Of a stretch of 64,000 bases of DNA, positions 4,587 to 61,699 are shown in pieces (positions within the stretch are counted from its first letter, which is position 1; every line of letters begins with the position of its first letter). This stretch comes from Dendrolimus kikuchii (taxonomy: Eukaryota > Arthropoda > Insecta > Lepidoptera > Lasiocampidae): assembly GCA_019925095.2 (NCBI GenBank), contig CM034403.1:2733690-2797689 (forward strand), in the 5' to 3' direction. The notes below the pieces were generated by a model, which saw only the letters and a list, made by a program, of their open reading frames with translations, did no database searches and had not been told where the DNA came from. A program made the translations under genes and the position numbers.

Positions 4587-5204
4587 ATATTAATACGTGA
4601 AGCAAAAGCTTTGTATCCCTTTTTACGAAAATTGCGCGGACGAAGGAGTATGAAGACACACTTATAGTTTATATAGAGAAGAAGCGACGAATGCTAATAT
4701 ATTTTTTTAAAATTATGCATAAAAAATACCTTAAATTAATAAAAAAAAAACATTACACACATTACCATGTATTTGACACACACACGCATAATATACTCTT
4801 TTGTTTATTGTTCAAGTCAAATTAATAGTGTAACCTTGGCGAAATCTGTGATTATAGAAGTATATTATAGTCTTTGACATTAATTATTATGGTCGAATTT
4901 CGACCACGGGCGACCACTAGTATTATTAAAAATATATCGCAAGAATTTGAATATCTATTGCCGCCATCGGAATAACTTACAGTATTGCGGCGTTTGGGGT
5001 GGAAACTCTGGGTCCGTGGGGTATTAACGCTCTGAAGGTTTATCGAGACTTTACCGAAAGTTAGATAGACCTCTCAAGCGACCAAAGGGCTGGCGTTTAT
5101 TTTGCTCAAAGGTTAAGCATTGCTATACAACGTGGTAACGCCTCCAGCCTCTTGGGAACGTTCCCGATAAGTGACAGTGGTTTGGGATCAATATTTTATT
5201 TATA

Positions 5205-5745
5205 AGTATACTTCTAGGCGCTAAGAACCTCAGCCAGAAGGCCCAGCTTGCCATACGCAACACGGTGCTGGTACCTACGCTCACGTATGGAAGCAAGAGT
5301 TGGGTATGGAAGAGAGAGCATGAAAGTAGAGTAAACGCGGTCGAGATGCGAGCACTGCGCAAAATCTGCGGAGTGACGCTCGCGGACCGCGTTCGTAATA
5401 CCGAAGTAAGAAAGAGAGTTGGTCTGAAAGAGAGTGTCGGGGTGAAGGTAAGGAAAGGAATGCCCCGGTGGTTCGGGCATGTGGAAAGAATGCATGATGA
5501 AAGAATGACTAAACAGATATACAATGCAAAAGTGGATAGATGCAGAAGTCGTGGAAGGCCACGCCACACCTTCCATGATCAAATTGATCGTGTACTAGCA
5601 GAAGGTGATGTCATAAGCCTTAAGAACAGACGAGCGTGCAAGACAAGAGTTATGAATGTCAAAGAAGCAAGTGAGGTGTGTAAGAATAAGCCTGAATGGC
5701 GCTCTGTTGTTCGTGCCTACCCCGCAAGGGAACTGCATGTATGTA
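5205..5745 (+). mobile_element. P-LINE 3' fragment with reverse-transcriptase C-terminus
   Basis: A ~160-codon open frame (from about 5265 to 5738) encodes the C-terminal region of an RTE-like reverse transcriptase: YGS-x-SWVW, then NAVEMRALR, a WFGHVERM motif and GRPRHTFHDQIDRVL. The catalytic RT and endonuclease domains are absent, so this is a 5'-truncated, inactive copy. It matches the minus-strand copies at 25734 and 60651. The 3' end runs into a short ATGTATGTAA tail. Confidence 0.85.
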
Positions 5746-5810
5746 AACAGATTTTATATCGTGATATTTTGAAAACTAAAATATGCATCAATTTCCTATA
5801 TATATGTATA

Positions 5811-6103
5811 TAAGCTGTGGTAGCGTAACGGTTAATGTACGCGTCCCAAACCCAAAGGGCGCGGGTTCGATCCTGGCTGGAACCCGTGCACCACTTAGGC
5901 AGTTTTCTGACCTAATGTGCATATTGTTATAATTACTACGTGCTAACAACGGTGAAGGAAAACATTGTCATGCAACCTGCACATCGAGATAACCGATGTG
6001 TCAAACCTGCCAAGCCGCCTTGGACTAGCGTGGCGGGTATACAGTCCGTTCCCTTATAGTGGGAGGTCCGAGCCCAGCAGTGGGACGTTTATGTGCTGTT
6101 ATT
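5811..6103 (+). mobile_element. tRNA-derived SINE (D)
   Basis: The head has an A-box-like TAGCGTAACGG and a perfect B box, GGTTCGATCC, about 40 bp later, as in tRNA-derived Pol III promoters. No CCA-ready acceptor stem is evident, so it is not a tRNA gene. The body contains 'GGAAAACATTGTCATGCAACC' like lepidopteran SINE bodies, and the tail reads 'CCCAGCAGTGGGACG', which is also found at LINE 3' ends. It is the only copy seen here. Confidence 0.7.
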
Positions 6104-25733: not shown

Positions 25734-26219
25734 TACATACATACATACATACATACATAACTTCACGCCAGTTCCCTTGCGGGGTAGGCACGAACAACAG
25801 AGCGCCATTTAGGCTTATTCTTACACACCTCACTTGCTTCTTTGACATTCATAACTATTGTCATGCACGCTCGTCTGTTCTTAAGGCTCCTAACATCACC
25901 TTCTGCTAGTACACGATCAATTTGATCATGGAAAGTGTGTCGTGGCCTTCCACGACTTCTGCATCCATCCACTTTTGCATTGTATATCTGTTTATTCATT
26001 CTTTCATCATGCATTCTTTCTACATGTCCGAACCACCGGAGCATTCCTTTCCTTACCTTCACCCCGACACTCTCTTTCAGACCAACTGTCTTTCTTACTT
26101 CGGTATTACGAACGCGGTCCGCGAGCGTCACTCCGCAGATTTTGCGCAGTGCTCGCATCTCGACCGCGTTCACTCTACTTTCATGCTCTTTCTTCCATAC
26201 CCAACTCTCGCTTCCATAC
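25734..26219 (-). mobile_element. P-LINE 3' fragment with long RT C-terminus
   Basis: The 12-bp TSD TTTGTGGTCACA lies at 25722-25733 and 26220-26231. A ~150-codon frame on the minus strand carries YGSESWVW, NAVEMRALRKICG, WFGHVERM and GRPRHTFHDQID. Open frames on the plus strand here are antisense. Bases 26232-26690 hold nothing recognised. Confidence 0.93.
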
Positions 26220-26690
26220 TTTGTGGTCACAAAATGGACAAATTTTATTTTTACACTACTTTTCACTTGATCCATAACCTGATAAAGTTATGGTCACGCA
26301 GTGGAAGCAAAGACCAACAACGACTGAATTATATATACATTTACTTATTTATGTGGAATGCATTTCGATGGCCGTCACTACAAAAATCAATAAGTCATCA
26401 TTGACAAATCTAACAAATACGATGAACCTCTGATAGCGAAGCTACTGGCAAAAATTTTTTTTTTCGTTTCACACACTCATTCATTTTATTAATCATCTTA
26501 CATGCATATTTATTTATTTAGGTTTATGGCTTGGCAGCTAGGCCTTTAAGCCAGATCTTAGTTTACAATATAGTTTCTTCATTTTCTTAAGCCTATGGGT
26601 AGCACAGCTGAACTGTAGGTAATCAGCTAGTGCCATTCAACGGAGTTCTTGTGACAACTCAAAAGGCCACATTTGACTTTACAGTTCACA

Positions 26691-27700: not shown

Positions 27701-27834
27701 AAATAACTATACTAGTATACCTATATAACACAGATACCTATAGGAGACGAAAATTGAATTTGATTCCTGAATACAATCCACTGCTTATGCAAGTAACATT
27801 TATACGAAAGCATGAGTATTCTGTATCCATAAAT

Positions 27835-28127
27835 ATTAGGTAATGCATTTTGTTCAGTGACCTTTTAACGTCCATTTTCGGTCTAAAAAGGGAAATAGAG
27901 CAGTCGATTCGGTAATCTAATTTCTATCTGGGACATAAAGGCTACTGATTGGTTATTTGATAAAATGTATATATACTATATGACATATATTCAGATCTGT
28001 AATACAATGTTTGACTATTAGGTAATGCATTTCGTTCAGTGAGCTTTCAACGTCCATTTTCGGTCTATAAAGGGAAATAGAACACTCGATTCAGTAATCT
28101 AATTTCTATTTGGGACATAAAGGCTAC
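27835..28127 (+). repeat. 178-bp satellite, left segment
   Basis: One full monomer from ATTAGGTAATGCATTT (27835) and a second from 28017, cut at 28127 by the BEL insertion. The array resumes at 33126 in the same orientation and phase. Confidence 0.9.
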
Positions 28128-28560
28128 TGTTCGGTCCTTGCCTAGTTAAAGTAGGTAGAACATCGCTCCATCAATTTTGCTGTCTACCCTCCTTCTGTGT
28201 GAGGCGACGGCCACTACAGAGCAGGGTAGGAGCAGCCTTTTTTGAACACTTACTGTCGACGTCTTAACGAGACTAGAACGCGCCGTGCGCTCATAATTTT
28301 GAATAATATTCATTATACTCATTGTGATTGCTGGCCGTGCCAAGAACTTATTTACTTAGACTTCTTAAAGTGTTAGCTCTAAGGTGGAGATTAGTGCCGT
28401 GTGCTGTTCCTGTGTGTAACCTGAACCGAGCCAGGAGAGGGTGGATCTCAAGGTTGGTGGAGCTTCTGCTTTTCTAGTGCAAGGATCTAGGTCATATTTC
28501 TCTCATACAGTCCATTATAAATTGAACCAGCATTTTTTCCGTAGGCTATAGCGCCCCACA
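28128..28560 (+). repeat. 5' LTR of the BEL element
   Basis: TGTTCGGTCC...GCGCCCCACA, 433 bp, TG...CA ends. A 65-codon antisense frame inside it is duplicated exactly in the 3' LTR and is not a gene. No clear TATA box; 'CATTATACTC' near 28312 is the nearest candidate. Confidence 0.93.
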
Positions 28561-28563
28561 TTT

Positions 28564-28581
28564 TGGCCTTCGAGCCGGATT
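28564..28581 (+). promoter_or_regulatory. Primer-binding site, tRNA-Tyr-like
   Basis: Three bases after the LTR comes TGGCCTTCGAGCCGGATT. This is complementary to the 3' end of animal tRNA-Tyr (...TCCGGCTCGAAGGA plus CCA) except for one missing base at the discriminator position. It would prime minus-strand DNA synthesis. Confidence 0.8.
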
Positions 28582-28825
28582 ATCCCCAGATTTTCGGATT
28601 TCTATCAGGATAATATTGTTTTAACCTCGTATCTTTGGCTATTTTGCATAAATTTTAGTCATACTCTTAATTTATATTTATACGTCGTACGTACGTACCC
28701 ACATACATAAGTACCCACTTTAAGACTACTTACAATTTTAATTTACAACTTCATTTATACAATTTGTGTTTTTAATATTGTCAGTTAGTAATTGTATTGT
28801 AAACTCAATAATTAAAAGCGTAATC

Positions 28826-30982
28826 ATGCCACCTAAACGTGATAGTAATGCATCAATTACATACTTGCATAAAAAAAGACAGGTTATTTTCGAAAAATTG
28901 CAAGAAGTTTATGAATTATCTAAAGACATTTCTAGCTCCGAAAATAAATAATTGTTTTTAATAATTGCCTCGGAAATTGACGATTTCCGTCGAAAATTTG
29001 AGAAAATAATTCATAAAATATTAGAAACTGAATTGGAGTCGAACCCTGATTCCACGATTCGAAGCCACGAACTAAAAAGTTTTGACACTATTTATTATCG
29101 TGTCAAATTAGTTTACAATAGATTGAAGCCGCCAATCAATAGTCCGAATGTCGAATCACCTTCTAATTTAATAGAAACTCGTCCCCGTCTTCCTAAATTA
29201 GAGTTGTTCACATTTGACGGAGACATAGAAAATTTTACAACATTTTATGAAACCTTTTGCTCACTAGTACACGATCAACCGCATATTCCAAACATTGATA
29301 AATTTCACTATTTGCTATCGTGCACAAAAGGTAGTGCATCAAATATTGTTAAGAGCTTGCCAATCACATCCTCGAATTATGAGCTTGTGTGGAAAAGCCT
29401 TTTGGATAAATACCACGACAACCGTTTGTTGGTCGGTAGGTATTTAGAAAAAATGTTAAATTTTACACCTTTAATTAACGAGTCTTCAACTCATTTAAAC
29501 ACGTTCATAGAAACATTTGAACATTCTTACAAAGCCATTCAGGCATTAAACATTAATAATTTAAGTAGCTATGTCATGTGCCATATAGCACTTCGGGCCC
29601 TAGACCCGCAATCTAGGAAATTATTTGAACAGGGCTTAGATCAAACTGCAGTACCTTCTTTTAATGACCTAATGTATTTTATACACAATCACATTAAAGT
29701 TCTCGACCATTCAATGTCTTATCCTCAATACTCAAATTCCGTGAAATTACAAAATAACCCAGAGCCTCTCAAACCTATTGCATACACACATGCATCTTCT
29801 TCTAAATTAAAAAATGTATGTTTACATTGTGGCGATAATCACTTGATTTTCCGGTGTGAAAGATTCCGTGAATTGAACATTTATAACCGTATCGACCGTG
29901 TTGAAACACTTAAACTTTGCTTTAATTGCCTAAAACCCAGTCATAATGCAGATAGTTGTAATAGCAAATTTAAATGTATTGTTTGCCACCGAGCGCACCA
30001 CTCATTGTTGCATTCCGATGATAGCAAACCGGTTTTTAGCCCGGGTCACGACGAATCGGACACACACGCTTCAACCACGCTGCAACGGACGGCGGACGCT
30101 CCTGTACAAACGTCGATAAATAATTATCACGCAGCATCTATCGACGACAAACATAGCAGTGCCTCGGTGTTATTGGGTACGGCAGTGGTTCATGTATTAG
30201 ATAAAAATTATCATTATCAGCCTTGTCGCGTCTTGATTGACTCGGGCGCGCAAACTAATTTCATTTCTACTGATTGTTTACGACGTTTACGATTGTCTTC
30301 GCGTAAATGTGATCTTGATATCTTTGGTCTCGCAGGCAAAAGAGTACACAATCAGGGCATGGCGTCATTTATCATGAAGCCACGTCATAGTAATGACCCA
30401 TCTTTCAACGTAGACGCTGTCGTGCTGCCTAAGATTACGAGTGATCTACCAATAGTTCAAATACCTCAAAATATTATTCATAACTATGAAAACCTTCTTT
30501 TAGCCGACCCGCACTTTTATAAAAGTGACAAAATCGATATTATTTTGGCGGGAGATATTTTTCCAAACATTTATGACGGAAAGAAATTGAACTTCGGAAA
30601 TGGCATTCCTCAAGCGGTAAATAGCATTTTTGGTTATGTTATTACCGGCAAGTTATCTCTAGGAGGAAGCCGTGACGTTCACGTTTCCACTGCCACCACT
30701 TCGTTGCATGCAATGTCGTATACTGCCAACAATAGAACATCCGCTGTTACTCCCAAACGTTCTCGGGGGTTGAAATCTTTACCATGCAAAGTCCGGGGTC
30801 TATTTCCGCAAGACGTTCTTGTCGACAAATTCAACGGAAATAATTATCACGACGTGACTGGCCATTACATTAATTATCCGCTAAGTACTAACTTCAATAA
30901 AAACGTTATGATACCCACTGAGTTGATCCGTGGGTCATGTTGGGGGGTACATCGTAACTGCAAATCGCTTTGTCTAAAGTAA
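28826..30982 (+). CDS. Gag-protease polyprotein of BEL element, one in-frame stop
   Basis: The likely start is ATG 28826 (MPPKRDSN). A TAA at 28949-28951 interrupts the frame, which then stays open for 676 codons to 30982. Numbering from the codon after that stop: a DUF1759-like Gag region about 78-260 (RLPKLELFTFDGDIENF start); zinc knuckles C290-C293-H297-C302 and C323-C326-H331-C336; a third Cys/His cluster 342-354; aspartic protease motif D430-S431-G432 in 'VLIDSGAQTNF'; and an ILAGDIFP segment near 531. Retroviral-type Gag packages RNA and the protease cleaves the polyprotein. It ends where BEL Pol normally continues into reverse transcriptase, with an unrelated-looking tail (GSCWGVHRNC). 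The stop could be read through, bypassed by internal initiation, or simply inactivating. Confidence 0.88.
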
Positions 30983-32676
30983 TTAAATATCGAATTTTAA
31001 GAATAAATAATTAATAAATAATATCGTAATTTAAAATTAATTAAAACCGAAACTAAAATAATCTTTGTTAACATTTAATATGACTTTTGTTCTTTTCTTT
31101 ATGTTAAAGTTTGAATTTACTTCAAGGTCGTTTGATTATTGTTTTAACTTAAAAATTAAATATATTTACTGAAATAAAACTAGTCAAACCCAAATTAAAC
31201 GTTTTGTAATAATATTGTATATTTTTTTTCTAAACTGCTGTTTTATCTTTCTTTGCGAATCCTTAATCCATTTTCAAATTAAAACATACATTAATATTGA
31301 CACTTTGCCATATATTAGGTAAATTTTTTAAAACTTAGATCTAGTTAAAATGCTGTGAAGCATTGCTTAATCAAACTGTAGATTTGATTATCTGTGATCC
31401 AATTGCACATATATCTTTAAAGTAGAAGTTTACTTAATTTCACAACGTAAGTTTCCAGCCCTTATTTAAGATACTTCCTCAAGGTGGGGAGTCGACAACA
31501 TAATAACACTTTACCTTAATGTGTGCTTATCAATATTTGATCACTACTTTTAATCTGAAACTATCACTAGGTACAATATTCAACTTTTCATGCATTCGAT
31601 TCAGTAATTATCGAATGGAGAATTACATTTTAGTATAAAACCATGCACGATGTATGCTATACTATTACACTATATCTACTATAACAGTCTTTTATAAATA
31701 TACTATTTATAAAAGATTAAAGTGGATATTGCAATGGATATTAAAATCTTAATTTTAATTTCAACTAAAAGGTACGTTACCTTGGTTTTATATTTAAATT
31801 AAATGTATTAATTCACTTATTTCTATAAATATATTTTACTAAATCGCATTAGAATATTTCTACTATCGATTTATTTATAAACCTCAAAAGGCTAGCAGAC
31901 TTTACATGTTTATTATTTATTAAGATTAAATATTTAGATTTTATTTCCATCGCTGTTTTAGTTCAAGCTTTTATATGGTTTGAACTTATTTTGAAGTTTA
32001 TAATGAATAAATAATATTCGAAATTTATTTCCGAATCGCAGATTCGTAATCATTATCTAATAATAATTTACATTCATCTAAATTTACGCCTTATTAACAG
32101 TTTCAGCTCTTGTCTTTCATTTGATCAAGTATGCTAGGGACATTGAATTATGATATAAAACATCGTCATATGGATTGTCACGTTGGCAATTCACTCATAA
32201 GTTAACACAAATCTGATACGTTGGTCGCATAATTATGTTCACAACGAGTATATCGAGCATTAATAATCTTATTATTAAAAAAGATTAAAATCGTAAACGT
32301 AGTGATTTACAGTAAATTAAGTATTAAATATTTCCTTTTAGTTGTTACAATTTAACAAGTTTTATTAAAGTTCTCATTGTAAGCTCGCAGCTTAAGGACT
32401 CGTAGTCCGCTGTCCATATCCGGCTCGTAGCTGTGGTATTCTTTTATATTATGGCTCGTAGCCATAAAAAATTCTAGCTTATTTGACTCTTAGACATATC
32501 TTAATTTCAAACTATATCTCTAATACTTGTGTAGTAGGTTCGTAGCCACACACTCTACTTTAATCGTAGTTCATTACCTTTAAGTACTCCTTGTTAGCTC
32601 ATAGTTACTTCCTACTTCTTTGGTTCGTAGCCTTTTCAATCTTTTCCTTTCTTTGTTACTGGAAATCATCATACTG
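30983..32676 (+). other. Noncoding internal region replacing pol
   Basis: About 1.7 kb, very AT-rich, no frame over 60 codons except one across the purine tract and LTR. Contains a purine-tract-like AAGGTGGGGA at 31481-31490, a perfect 12-bp hairpin (31688-31699 with 31705-31716), and from about 32383 to 32633 eight spaced copies of a CTCGTAGC-like word. Possible roles are RNA packaging or just filler; none is shown. Confidence 0.7.
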
Positions 32677-32679
32677 ATT

Positions 32680-32692
32680 TCGGTGGGGGGTA
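32680..32692 (+). promoter_or_regulatory. Polypurine tract
   Basis: CGGTGGGGGGTA directly precedes the 3' LTR, the position of the plus-strand primer in LTR retrotransposons. The G run is uninterrupted. Confidence 0.75.
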
Positions 32693-33125
32693 TGTTCGGT
32701 CCTTGCCTAGTTAAAGTAGGTAGAACATCGCTCCATCAATTTTGCTGTCTACCCTCCTTCTGTGTGAGGCGACGGCCACTACAGAGCAGGGTAGGAGCAG
32801 CCTTTTTTGAACACTTACTGTCGACGTCTTAACGAGACTAGAACGCGCCGTGCGCTCATAATTTTGAATAATATTCATTATACTCATTGTGATTGCTGGC
32901 CGTGCCAAGAACTTATTTACTTAGACTTCTTAAAGTGTTAGCTCTAAGGTGGAGATTAGTGCCGTGTGCTGTTCCTGTGTGTAACCTGAACCGAGCCAGG
33001 AGAGGGTGGATCTCAAGGTTGGTGGAGCTTCTGCTTTTCTAGTGCAAGGATCTAGGTCATATTTCTCTCATACAGTCCATTATAAATTGAACCAGCATTT
33101 TTTCCGTAGGCTATAGCGCCCCACA
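32693..33125 (+). repeat. 3' LTR of the BEL element
   Basis: 433 bp; compared by eye with 28128-28560, I found no difference. It is followed at once by the TSD copy GCTAC and the continuing satellite. Confidence 0.93.
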
Positions 33126-35640
33126 GCTACTGAGTGGTAATTTGATAAAATGAATATTATACGACATATATTCAGATCTTTCATACAATATTCGACTATT
33201 AGGTAATGCATTTCGTTCAGTGAGCTTTTCAGATCTTTCATACAATATTTGACTAACACTCGATTCGGTAATCTAATTTCTATCTGGGACGTAAAGGCTA
33301 AAATTTGATAAAATGAATATTATACGACATATATTCAGATCTTTCATACAATATTTGACTATTAGGTAATGCATTTCGTTCAGTGAGCTTTCAACGTCCA
33401 TTTTCGGTCTATAAAGGGAAATAGAACACTCGATTCGGTAATCTAATTTCTATCTGGGACGTAAAGGCTACTGAGTGGTAATTTGATAAAATGAATATTA
33501 TACGACATATATTCTCGATTTGGTAATCTAATTTCTATCTGGGACATAAAGCCTTCTAATTGGTTATTTGATAAAATGAATATTATACGACATATATTCA
33601 GATCTTTCATACAATATTTGACTATTAGGTAATGCATTTCGTTCAGTGAGCTTTCAACGTCCATTTTCGGTCTATAAAGGGAAATAGAACACTCGATTCG
33701 GTAATCTAATTTCTATTTAGTGAACTTTTCAACGTCCATTTTCGGTCTATAAAGGGAAATAGAACACTCGATTCGGTAATCTAATTTCTATCTGGGACGT
33801 AAAGGCTACTGAGTGGTAATTTGATAAAATGAATATTATACGACATATATTCAGATCTTTCATACAATATTCGACTATTAGGTAATGCATTTCGTTCAGT
33901 GAGCTTTTAACGTCCATTTTCGGTCTAAAAAGGGAAATAGAGCAGTCAATTCGGTAATCTAATTTCTATCTGGGACATAAAGGCTACTGAGTGGTAATTT
34001 GATAAAATAAATATTATACGACATATATTCAGATCTTTCATACAATATTCGACTATTAGGTAATGCATTTCGTTCAGTGAGCTTTTAACGTCCATTTTCG
34101 GTCTAAAAAGGGAAATAGGACACTCGATTCGGTAATCTAATTTCTATCGGGGACATAATGCCTTCTAATTGGTTATTTGATAAAATGAATATTATACGAC
34201 ATATATTCAGATCTTTCATACAATATATGACTATTAGGTAATGCATTTTATTTAGTGAACTTTTCAACGTCCATTTTCGGTCTATAAAGGGAAATAGAAC
34301 ACTCGATTCGGTAATCTAATTTCTATCTGGGACATAAAGGCTACTGACTGGTAATTTGATAAAATGAATATTATACGACATATATTCAGATCTTTCATAC
34401 AATATTCGACTATTAGGTAATGCATTTCGTTCAGTGAGCTTTTAACGTCCATTTTCGGTCTAAAAAGGGAAATAGAGCAGTCGATTCGGTAATCTAATTT
34501 CTATCTGGGACATAAAGGCTACTGACTGGTTATTTGATAAAATGAATATTATACGACATATATTCAGATCTTTCATACAATATTCGACTATTAGGTAATG
34601 CATTTCGTTCAGTGAGCTTTTAACGTCCATTTTCGGTCTAAAAAGGGAAATAGAGCAGTCAATTCGGTAATCTAATTTCTATCTGGGACATAAAGGCTAC
34701 TGAGTGGTAATTTGATAAAATAAATATTATACGACATATATTCAGATCTTTCATACAATATTCGACTATTAGGTAATGCATTTCGTTCAGTGAGCTTTTA
34801 ACGTCCATTTTCGGTCTAAAAAGGGAAATAGGACACTCGATTCGGTAATCTAATTTCTATCGGGGACATAATGCCTTCTAATTGGTTATTTGATAAAATG
34901 AATATTATACGACATATATTCAGATCTTTCATACAATATATGACTATTAGGTAATGCATTTTATTTAGTGAACTTTTCAACGTCCATTTTCGGTCTATAA
35001 AGGGAAATAGAACACTCGATTCGGTAATCTAATTTCTATCTGGGACATAAAGGCTACTGACTGGTAATTTGATAAAATGAATATTATACGACATATATTC
35101 AGATCTTTCATACAATATTCGACTATTAGGTAATGCATTTCGTTCAGTGAGCTTTTAACGTCCATTTTCGGTCTAAAAAGGGAAATAGAGCAGTCGATTC
35201 GGTAATCTAATTTCTATCTGGGACATAAAGGCTACTGACTGGTTATTTGATAAAATGAATATTATACGACATATATTCAGATCTTTCATACAATATTCGA
35301 CTATTAGGTAATGCATTTCGTTCAGTGAGCTTTTAACGTCCATTTTCGGTCTAAAAAGGGAAATAGAGCAGTCGATTCGGTAATCTAATTTCTATCTGGG
35401 ACATAAAGGCTACTGACTGGTTATTTGATAAAATGAATATTATACGACATATATTCAGATCTTTCATACAATATTCGACTATTAGGTAATGCATTTCGTT
35501 CAGTGAGCTTTTAACGTCCATTTTCGGTCTAAAAAGGGAAATAGAGCAGTCGATTCGGTAATTTAATTTCTATCTGGGACATAAAGGCTACTGAGTGGTA
35601 ATTTGAGAAAATTAATATTATAAGATATATATATATATAT
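33126..35640 (+). repeat. 178-bp satellite array with higher-order structure
   Basis: ATTAGGTAATGCATTT marks monomers at 33877, 34055, 34233, 34412, 34590, 34768, 34946, 35125, 35303 and 35481 (periods 178-179). Monomers A-B-C-D at 33877-34589 (713 bp) recur as A-B-C-D at 34590-35302; two further D-type monomers follow. 33126-33876 is irregular, with truncated monomers and a 76-bp internal duplication near 33715. The array decays into (AT)n at about 35625. Noncoding. Confidence 0.93.
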
Positions 35641-60650: not shown

Positions 60651-61370
60651 ACATACATACATACATACATACCTAACTTCACGCCAGTTCCCTTGCGGGT
60701 TAGGCGCGAACAACAGAGCGCCATTCAGGCTTATACTTACACACTTCACTTGCTTCTTTGATATTCATAACTCTTGTCATGCACGCTTGTCTATTCTTGA
60801 GGCTCCTGACGTCACCTTCTGCTAGTACACGATCAATTTGATCATGGAAGGTGTGTCGTGGCCTTCCACGATTTCTGCATCCATCCACTTTTGCATTGTA
60901 TATCTGTTTAGTCATTCTTACATCATGCATTCTTTCCACATGCCCGAACCACCGAAGCATTCCTTTCCTTACCTTCACCCCGACACTCTCTTTCAGACCA
61001 ACTCTCTTGCTTACTTCGGTATTACGAACGCGGTCGGCGAGCGCTCGCAACTCGACTGCGTTTACTCTACTTTCATGCTCTCTCTTCCATACCCAACTCT
61101 CGCTTCCATACGTGAGCGTAGGTACCAGCACCGCGTTGTATACGGCGAGCTGGGCCTTCTGGCTGAGGTTCTTAGCGCCTAGAAGTTTACCTAACGCTCC
61201 ATTCAAACTATTCCCCAAATTCACTCCTCTTTCTATATCAGCGGTGTACCTTCCATCCCTGCTAAAAGCACATCCAAGATAAGAAAACTTATAGTTACAT
61301 GAAAGACTCATTAATATTGAAGAACAATTTGGGCACGTGTCATGTTGAGTTGATTCCGTCAATATTCCGA
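60651..61370 (-). mobile_element. P-LINE, longest 3' fragment
   Basis: A 220-codon minus-strand frame (61362 to 60700): FSYLGCAFSRDGRYTADIER, VLVPTLTYGSESWVW, NAVELRAL, then a short deletion removing RKICGVTL, WFGHVERM and GRPRHTFHDQID. (CATA)n tail at the left. The 5' limit is uncertain and the TSD was not found. Catalytic domains absent. Confidence 0.9.
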
Positions 61371-61699
61371 CGTCATATGGAACTCATTACGTCATTCGTA
61401 CCCTGCTCATATAACCGTGAGCTTTATTCCTACCTGCGGTTATGTTATTGACATCCAATCACTGTCTGTATATTGACAATTTCAATATTTGTTGGAACGA
61501 AATTTGCTATCTCTTACAAAATTACACGATTTCATTTAATTACATTTTAACGAAGTCTTGAGAATTGTCTTCCGCCCCCCTCTTCTACTTTAGAGCTAAA
61601 ACATGGAAGATTCTGAAAAAATTAAGATATGTACAAAATCCGCGAAATATCATCAGATCAGGAACCTCCGTGGTGTCTTTAAAGTGTGACTCCAGCAAC
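61371..61699. other. No gene seen
   Basis: AT-rich, unrecognised; possibly a further, unaligned 5' part of the LINE on the left. Confidence 0.35.

Follow-up and report, generated by a model that had tools for sequence, protein, structure and literature searches.

HeT-A, the Gag-encoding element of Drosophila telomeres, is a non-long terminal repeat (non-LTR) element thought to borrow reverse transcriptase (RT), and CM-gag of Culex pipiens is, by title alone, said to be a mosquito repeat with a gag gene only. The gag gene and 3' untranslated region (UTR) of HeT-A are treated in PMC3357415. Among LTR elements, one Copia element of the plant TR-GAG type transposed in Arabidopsis and is related to a similar element that is potentially autonomous (PMC8704663), and mouse IAP I-delta-1, with part of gag and pol deleted, makes a Gag-Pol fusion protein that acts in cis (PMC6466679). 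Insect context is provided by mosquito surveys (PMC3286476, PMC3442997, and PMC3212995) and by the honey-bee genome (PMC4028053). Here, we analyze a BEL/Pao LTR element at positions 28128 to 33125 of a 64,000-nucleotide stretch of the Dendrolimus kikuchii genome (contig CM034403.1; the whole stretch is called the window), and we report its structure, the youth of its copies, the pol-less clade to which it belongs, the selection that acted after pol was lost, and the pol-bearing relatives that coexist with it. It is likely that this element represents a long-lived non-autonomous BEL/Pao lineage that supplies its own Gag-protease and obtains RT and integrase in trans.

A preliminary description of this DNA had likened the element to TR-GAG. 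The LTRs, the Gag frame, the absence of pol, and the multiple pol-less copies agree with that likeness, whereas the plant origin and the single Gag frame do not; this element is BEL/Pao and not Copia, keeps a protease and a decayed integrase tail, and belongs to a diversified clade with measured selection. The description had also called such elements uncommon in animals, which has to be tempered, as mouse IAP I-delta-1 is a close functional parallel (PMC6466679): an internally deleted, non-autonomous animal LTR element whose own protein acts in cis and others in trans. The present element belongs to another superfamily and, unlike I-delta-1, keeps Gag and protease and lacks the RT-RNase H-integrase core. 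As with bovine ERVK[2-1-LTR] D-type and mouse ETn elements, non-autonomous copies outnumber competent ones and flanking sequence is shared, but those elements have no functional genes, while here Gag-protease is under selection (PMC10924933 and PMC6466679). Anopheles gambiae Pao-Bel "cluster 185" is likewise an insect BEL/Pao element, but its frame has no conserved domains and is reported to evolve neutrally (PMC3212995), while here Gag is retained. We found no Gag-only BEL/Pao lineage in searches of the open-licence literature for BEL/Pao elements and for Gag-only elements of any kind, as covered by titles and the starts of abstracts (Repbase reports fall outside this scope). The lineage joins a known kind, the non-autonomous LTR elements that keep Gag, and adds a clear signal of selection after pol loss. 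The non-autonomous animal LTR elements compared here keep cis signals only or a damaged Gag; in the present case, a single genome lets selection on Gag and protease after pol loss be measured, and this separates the retroelement functions needed from an RNA's own copy from those that can be borrowed. An old pol-less clade with young copies and few pol-bearing relatives is also a natural system for studying the Gag:Pol ratio of single-frame BEL elements.

Structure of the element and its insertion site

The element has LTRs that start with TG and end with CA, a 5-bp target-site duplication (TSD), a primer-binding site (PBS), and a polypurine tract (PPT), as BEL/Pao elements do, and its descent is seen in a DUF1759 Gag, zinc knuckles, and a BEL-type DSG protease. 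It is not autonomous: RT, RNase H, and the integrase core are all missing, and only a decayed integrase tail is left. The features, in window coordinates, are as follows.

28123 to 28127, no strand: 5' TSD, GCTAC, read from the sequence
28128 to 28560, plus strand: 5' LTR, 433 bp, TGTTCGG...CCCCACA, identical to the 3' LTR
28564 to 28578, plus strand: PBS-like TGGCCTTCGAGCCGG, with a core motif also found in the three pol-bearing copies examined
28826 to 28951, plus strand: start of gag, 41 codons, closed by an in-frame TAA at 28949 to 28951 (codon 42)
28952 to 30982, plus strand: open frame in the same phase, 676 amino acids, Gag, protease, and pol linker
29213 to 29632, plus strand: DUF1759 (PF03564) domain of Gag, Pfam E value of 4.3e-29
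29819 to 30013, plus strand: zinc knuckles CLHCGDNHLIFRC, CFNCLKPSHNADSC, and CIVCHRAHHSLLH, from the translation; 26 of the 26 invariant columns of this region are kept
30149 to 30655, plus strand: aspartic protease with the LIDSGA motif, from Pfam and alignment
30701 to 30982, plus strand: diverged protease-RT linker remnant of pol, still open and evolving neutrally; 30701 to 30874 aligned to 17 relatives
30983 to 32172, plus strand: AT-rich stretch occupying the site of the RT-RNase H-integrase core, coding not recognizable
32173 to 32245, plus strand: decayed C-terminal integrase remnant with a frameshift and a stop, from a DNA match
32380 to 32633, plus strand: seven small hairpins with the loop TC(G/A)(T/C)A and differing stems
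32682 to 32690, plus strand: PPT, GGTGGGGGG
32693 to 33125, plus strand: 3' LTR, 433 bp
33126 to 33130, no strand: 3' TSD, GCTAC

The PBS-like sequence resembles the complement of the 3' end of a tRNA, which we take to be tRNA-Tyr. The two LTRs differ at 0 of 433 positions (95% upper bound of the divergence, 0.69%), and the identical LTRs, intact TSD, exact boundaries, and recent insertion given in the preliminary description were all borne out. An assembly gap inside the element had been considered in that description; the element contains no N. The element interrupts an array of an ~178-bp satellite (27790 to 28127 and 33154 to 35632); the joined flanks match the surrounding units (86 to 97%), so the empty site can be recovered.

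Pfam, translation, and a six-frame search agreed with the earlier view that a Gag with zinc knuckles and a DSG protease is present and that the pol enzymes are missing, as the six-frame search of the element gave no convincing match to RT, RNase H, or integrase. The aspartyl-protease Pfam matches are weak (the best is 5.6e-4, below curated cut-offs, with DUF1758 at 0.083), and three zinc-knuckle-type motifs and LIDSGA are visible in the translated frame. The frame goes on for 108 codons after residue 568 of its 676, where the protease block ends, and ~70 of these can be aligned to the linker that joins protease and RT in pol. The interior Gag frame had been recognized before, but its in-frame stop at codon 42 had been overlooked. 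Similarly, the 1.7-kb AT-rich stretch earlier called noncoding has no recognizable coding over its first part, where the RT-RNase H-integrase core would lie, but does contain the decayed integrase tail; the longest stop-free run between 30983 and 32692 is 53 codons.

Per-frame hidden Markov model searches for pol remnants between 30870 and 32692 gave scores not above those of shuffled sequences. A frameshift-tolerant search scored the integrase remnant at 59.4, a value reached by 0 of 200 shuffles and, in a second run, by 4 of 1000, and 1 of 62 other window chunks scored higher (65.9). This search is only suggestive, and we accept the remnant because its DNA (32173 to 32243) matches the integrase of a pol-bearing copy in the same genome (72% identity; E value of 6e-7).

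Copies in the host genome and full-length relatives

We searched the host assembly (705.5 Mb in 49 contigs) with the LTR, the non-coding interior, gag, and RT, and other copies with the same pol-less interior were found, which the preliminary description had named as the mark of a propagating lineage. With the LTR, all 40 scored matches (the best 40 of 1230 candidates, including the window's own two) were at least 95% identical. The element interior was absent from all five LTR matches analyzed with 1.5-kb flanks; three of these have perfect 5-bp TSDs where the BLAST match ends, a fourth has ATACG if the LTR is extended by 2 bases, and the fifth matches at 4 of 5 bases, so we regard them as solo LTRs. 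The non-coding interior recovered three copies at 98% identity or more and seven partial copies at 65 to 68%. With gag, 45 matches (the best 40 of 44 candidates) fell into 38 loci, of which three were at least 98% identical and the rest 72 to 82%.

Of the 38 loci, 34 have no RT downstream of gag and 3 have one, while the remaining locus breaks off inside gag and is uninformative; a re-check with 18 full-length relatives gave the same result (34 of 37 informative loci without RT). Absence of RT was mostly judged from ~1.5 kb downstream of gag, and in the three pol-bearing copies, RT starts directly after the linker. Because the gag query comes from a pol-less element, these counts are biased toward pol-less matches. 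Subfamilies whose full-length gag matches differ from the window by 18 to 24% have the same pol-less structure. The case in which all other copies would have full pol, raised in the preliminary description, is thus the opposite of what is seen.

LTR pairs could be compared in four pol-less copies from three subfamilies and are 99.5 to 100% identical, with 0 of 433 differences in the window, 1 of 412 in the copy on contig C8 (group A, the window's subfamily), 2 of 431 in group B, and 0 of 429 in group D, where the copy has the TSD CATAA. These near-identical pairs show recent movement in at least three of the pol-less subfamilies.

A profile search recovered 16 full-length gag-pol proteins (1717 to 1778 amino acids) that are 46 to 64% identical to the window protein and carry PF03564, PF05380, and PF18701, so pol was lost from the lineage of the window element. 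The named relatives are insect proteins, one of the 16 coming from Choristoneura fumiferana, and the best, P0144, is 64% identical over 95%. In the alignment to full-length BEL elements that had been proposed earlier, the frame follows pol to about residue 693 of P0144 and, more weakly, to ~720 in another copy. The profile search was the third protein search. In the first, close relatives with RT seemed to be lacking, an artifact of a length filter that admitted only proteins of similar length; the second was dominated by a fly query, and close relatives were absent from it. Three further proteins (P0027, P0043, and P0109, the first and last from flies) have Gag-protease frames that lack RT and are joined to integrase-end sequence, and they may reflect either similar internal deletions in Diptera or gene-model artifacts.

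Selection on gag and protease after the loss of pol

In a rooted protein tree of native open frames with an outgroup relative, a split supported at 100% sets pol-less groups A, B, C, D, F, G, and H apart from the other proteins, the nearest of which is a pol-bearing copy from the same genome and the next P0144. We count at least seven subfamilies, with I_C33 merged because it lies ~4% from group F in the DNA tree. The branching order within the pol-less clade is poorly resolved (25 to 64% at several nodes). An 8- to 10-residue gap in the linker is common to the pol-less copies displayed in the alignment.

The linker has diverged in a way that gag and protease have not. The window retains 113 of the 115 columns of gag plus protease that do not vary among 17 full-length relatives, and 5 of the 13 such columns in the linker. 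The terminal branch for gag plus protease is 0.31 in the window and 0.20 in P0144, while that for the linker is 1.47 and 0.16, respectively. The ratio of linker identity to gag-protease identity is 0.46 to 0.69 in the 17 pairs that include the window and 0.72 to 1.28 in the 136 others.

Codons were compared in three pol-less pairs that are disjoint on the DNA tree (support of 67 to 84% for two of them). In gag plus protease, the first, second, and third codon positions showed 0.142, 0.082, and 0.317 differences per site, as against 0.237, 0.213, and 0.280 in the linker (Fisher P = 2.6e-5). Among codons with a single change, the synonymous-to-nonsynonymous counts were 243:117 for gag, 118:64 for protease, and 14:53 for the linker. 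Nine representatives gave 36 pairs, over which the position 3 rate divided by the position 1 plus 2 rate had a median of 3.00 in gag (0.67 to 3.85), 2.92 in protease (1.32 to 4.00), and 1.20 in the linker (0 to 6), with extremes that include pairs of near-identical copies. The synonymous excess between pol-less subfamilies shows that gag and protease were both maintained after pol was lost; they have been under purifying selection since then, and the adjoining leftover of pol has drifted. Together with the prevalence of loci without RT, this supports the earlier proposal of a non-autonomous lineage with a retained Gag of its own. In neutral simulations, a linker without a stop had a probability of 0.04 to 0.12 (0.18 to 0.33 per lineage), so the open tail is only mildly unlikely under neutrality and we claim no selection for it.

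Proposed supply of pol in trans and competing explanations

Possible helpers exist in the same genome. Among the best 150 of 1941 candidates, the RT search gave four loci at 76 to 84% identity to P0144, with the next at 52% or less; the 200-residue query is free of stops in each, one has an open frame of 1,751 codons, and the RT-bearing gag loci account for three of the four. The PBS motif is the same in the window and in all three pol-bearing copies examined, and a stretch on the PPT side has 84% identity at the single pol-bearing 3' end that aligned, so that pol-bearing relatives and shared cis signals occur in one genome, as in a helper pair. Two pol-bearing copies have LTR pairs with 4 of 412 (plus one gap) and 3 of 431 differences, and ~20 genomic LTRs are at least 94% identical to the LTR of one pol-bearing copy. 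It is their kinship that suggests these loci as helpers, and a different BEL family could fill that role. Of the pol-bearing copies, the one whose frame is longest (L049/L050, on contig C31) is followed, after its 3' LTR, by gag-like sequence with 27% identity to P0144.

The window's hairpin cluster lies just upstream of the PPT, and in none of 1000 shuffled sequences is any loop repeated that many times. When the window's loop was used as the fixed motif, the counts in groups B and C and in two pol-bearing copies were above those in all of 1000 shuffles; the test is weak for group D, whose count exceeds 994 (6 of 1000 reach it). Clusters with a constant loop and varying stems are also found in L056, L012, L055, and L052. 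Rfam gave three matches, each far below its gathering score. The 3' hairpins may serve in packaging or as a cis signal of another kind.

In the reading that we consider likely, a single ancestor would have lost the RT-RNase H-integrase core, and its descendants would have radiated into at least seven subfamilies, at least three of them recently mobile. A working Gag-protease would act for its own element in RNA packaging, particle assembly, and maturation, while RT, RNase H, and integrase would come in trans from BEL elements that carry pol, most probably members of the same clade, by way of the same PBS, related LTRs, and 3' hairpins in mixed particles.

Several observations weigh against this reading. 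All three copies of group A at 98% identity or more are flawed: the window has the gag stop, the C8 copy has LTRs short by 20 and 6 outer bases in BLAST, and the C30 copy is 5' truncated. The nonsense codon now limits the window copy to Gag from other copies; it is missing from C8, the sole other group A copy that spans the position (the third falls short), and further stops are present in two group C copies. The nucleocapsid region of the window evolves faster, with a branch of 0.62 against 0.25 for P0144, and its invariant columns are all kept. The integrase remnant was undetected in groups F, H, and I within the 1.5 kb fetched. On the helper side, the LTRs of pol-bearing copies, where found, are 72 to 73% identical to the window LTR; the 1,751-codon copy has only 34 recognizable bp of its 5' LTR, and the frames of the two copies that keep both LTRs measure 1,102 and 1,587 codons, so none of the three pol-bearing copies examined combines a complete frame with two LTRs. 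Lastly, group C (for example, L027 and L012) has LTRs 94 to 96% identical and a 3' UTR end 95% identical to those of the window, but its interior is 66 to 81% and its gag 76% identical, from which we conclude that the subfamilies recombine.

A division of labor, in which autonomous BEL elements make one Gag-Pol frame and pol-less elements add surplus Gag-protease in a partly mutualistic relation, is unlikely but has some support. Since Gag and Pol form one frame in autonomous BEL elements, as in the 16 single-frame polyproteins and the 1,751-codon copy, the pol-less clade may supply extra Gag for particles, and pol-less gag loci (34) outnumber those with RT (3, or 4 loci by the RT search). However, the gag count carries the bias of its query, and simple parasitism with a cis-acting Gag explains the same facts. 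We regard as equally doubtful the related proposal that the two kinds of element would be a co-dependent pair instead of parasite and host, with the hairpins and their UCGUA-type loop as a common packaging signal.

The recombination seen in group C could also point to a chimera, in which a live LTR-gag-protease part was template-switched, perhaps repeatedly, onto the 3' part of a dead copy, leaving the decay of pol undated. Exchange between subfamilies belongs to the history of these elements, yet it leaves the neutral linker across groups unexplained; this neutral divergence, the monophyly of gag-protease, and the shared linker gap argue for a single ancestral loss, and a chimeric origin is quite improbable.

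The window copy, with a gag stop and yet identical LTRs, is what would be expected of a fully trans-mobilised parasite that borrows Gag as well and whose gag frame is merely left from recent autonomy. Such an origin is very improbable, as the synonymous excess between subfamilies is found in gag and protease and not in the linker, and another group A copy is stop-free, with a 746-codon open frame. That the element arose by a one-off internal deletion within a young autonomous element, as its identical LTRs and the existence of full-length relatives might suggest, is refuted by the other pol-less gag loci, by subfamilies that lie 18 to 24% apart in gag DNA, and by a linker far more diverged than the rest of the frame, and we give it almost no credence.

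Some additional features of the copies and of the window were seen. In L013 (contig C43) and L014 (contig C42), group C gag is split by 6 to 12 kb ending in integrase-like sequence with 45% identity to P0144, which is perhaps another BEL insertion. Eighteen of the 38 gag loci lie on host contigs numbered C30 or higher; those with a known length are small (C30, 9.2 Mb; C31, 7.5 Mb; C32, 5.3 Mb; C33, 2.1 Mb; C36, 0.46 Mb; C41, 0.32 Mb), and these gag-bearing contigs are perhaps W chromosome or heterochromatin. Elsewhere, searches of viral contigs and of phage records gave no related locus and no related sequence, respectively. Within the window, fragments at 5175 to 5813, 25763 to 26287, and 60700 to 61383 overlap stretches that have many relatives inside the window, and they presumably represent the ends of a non-LTR reverse transcriptase family, which they resemble.

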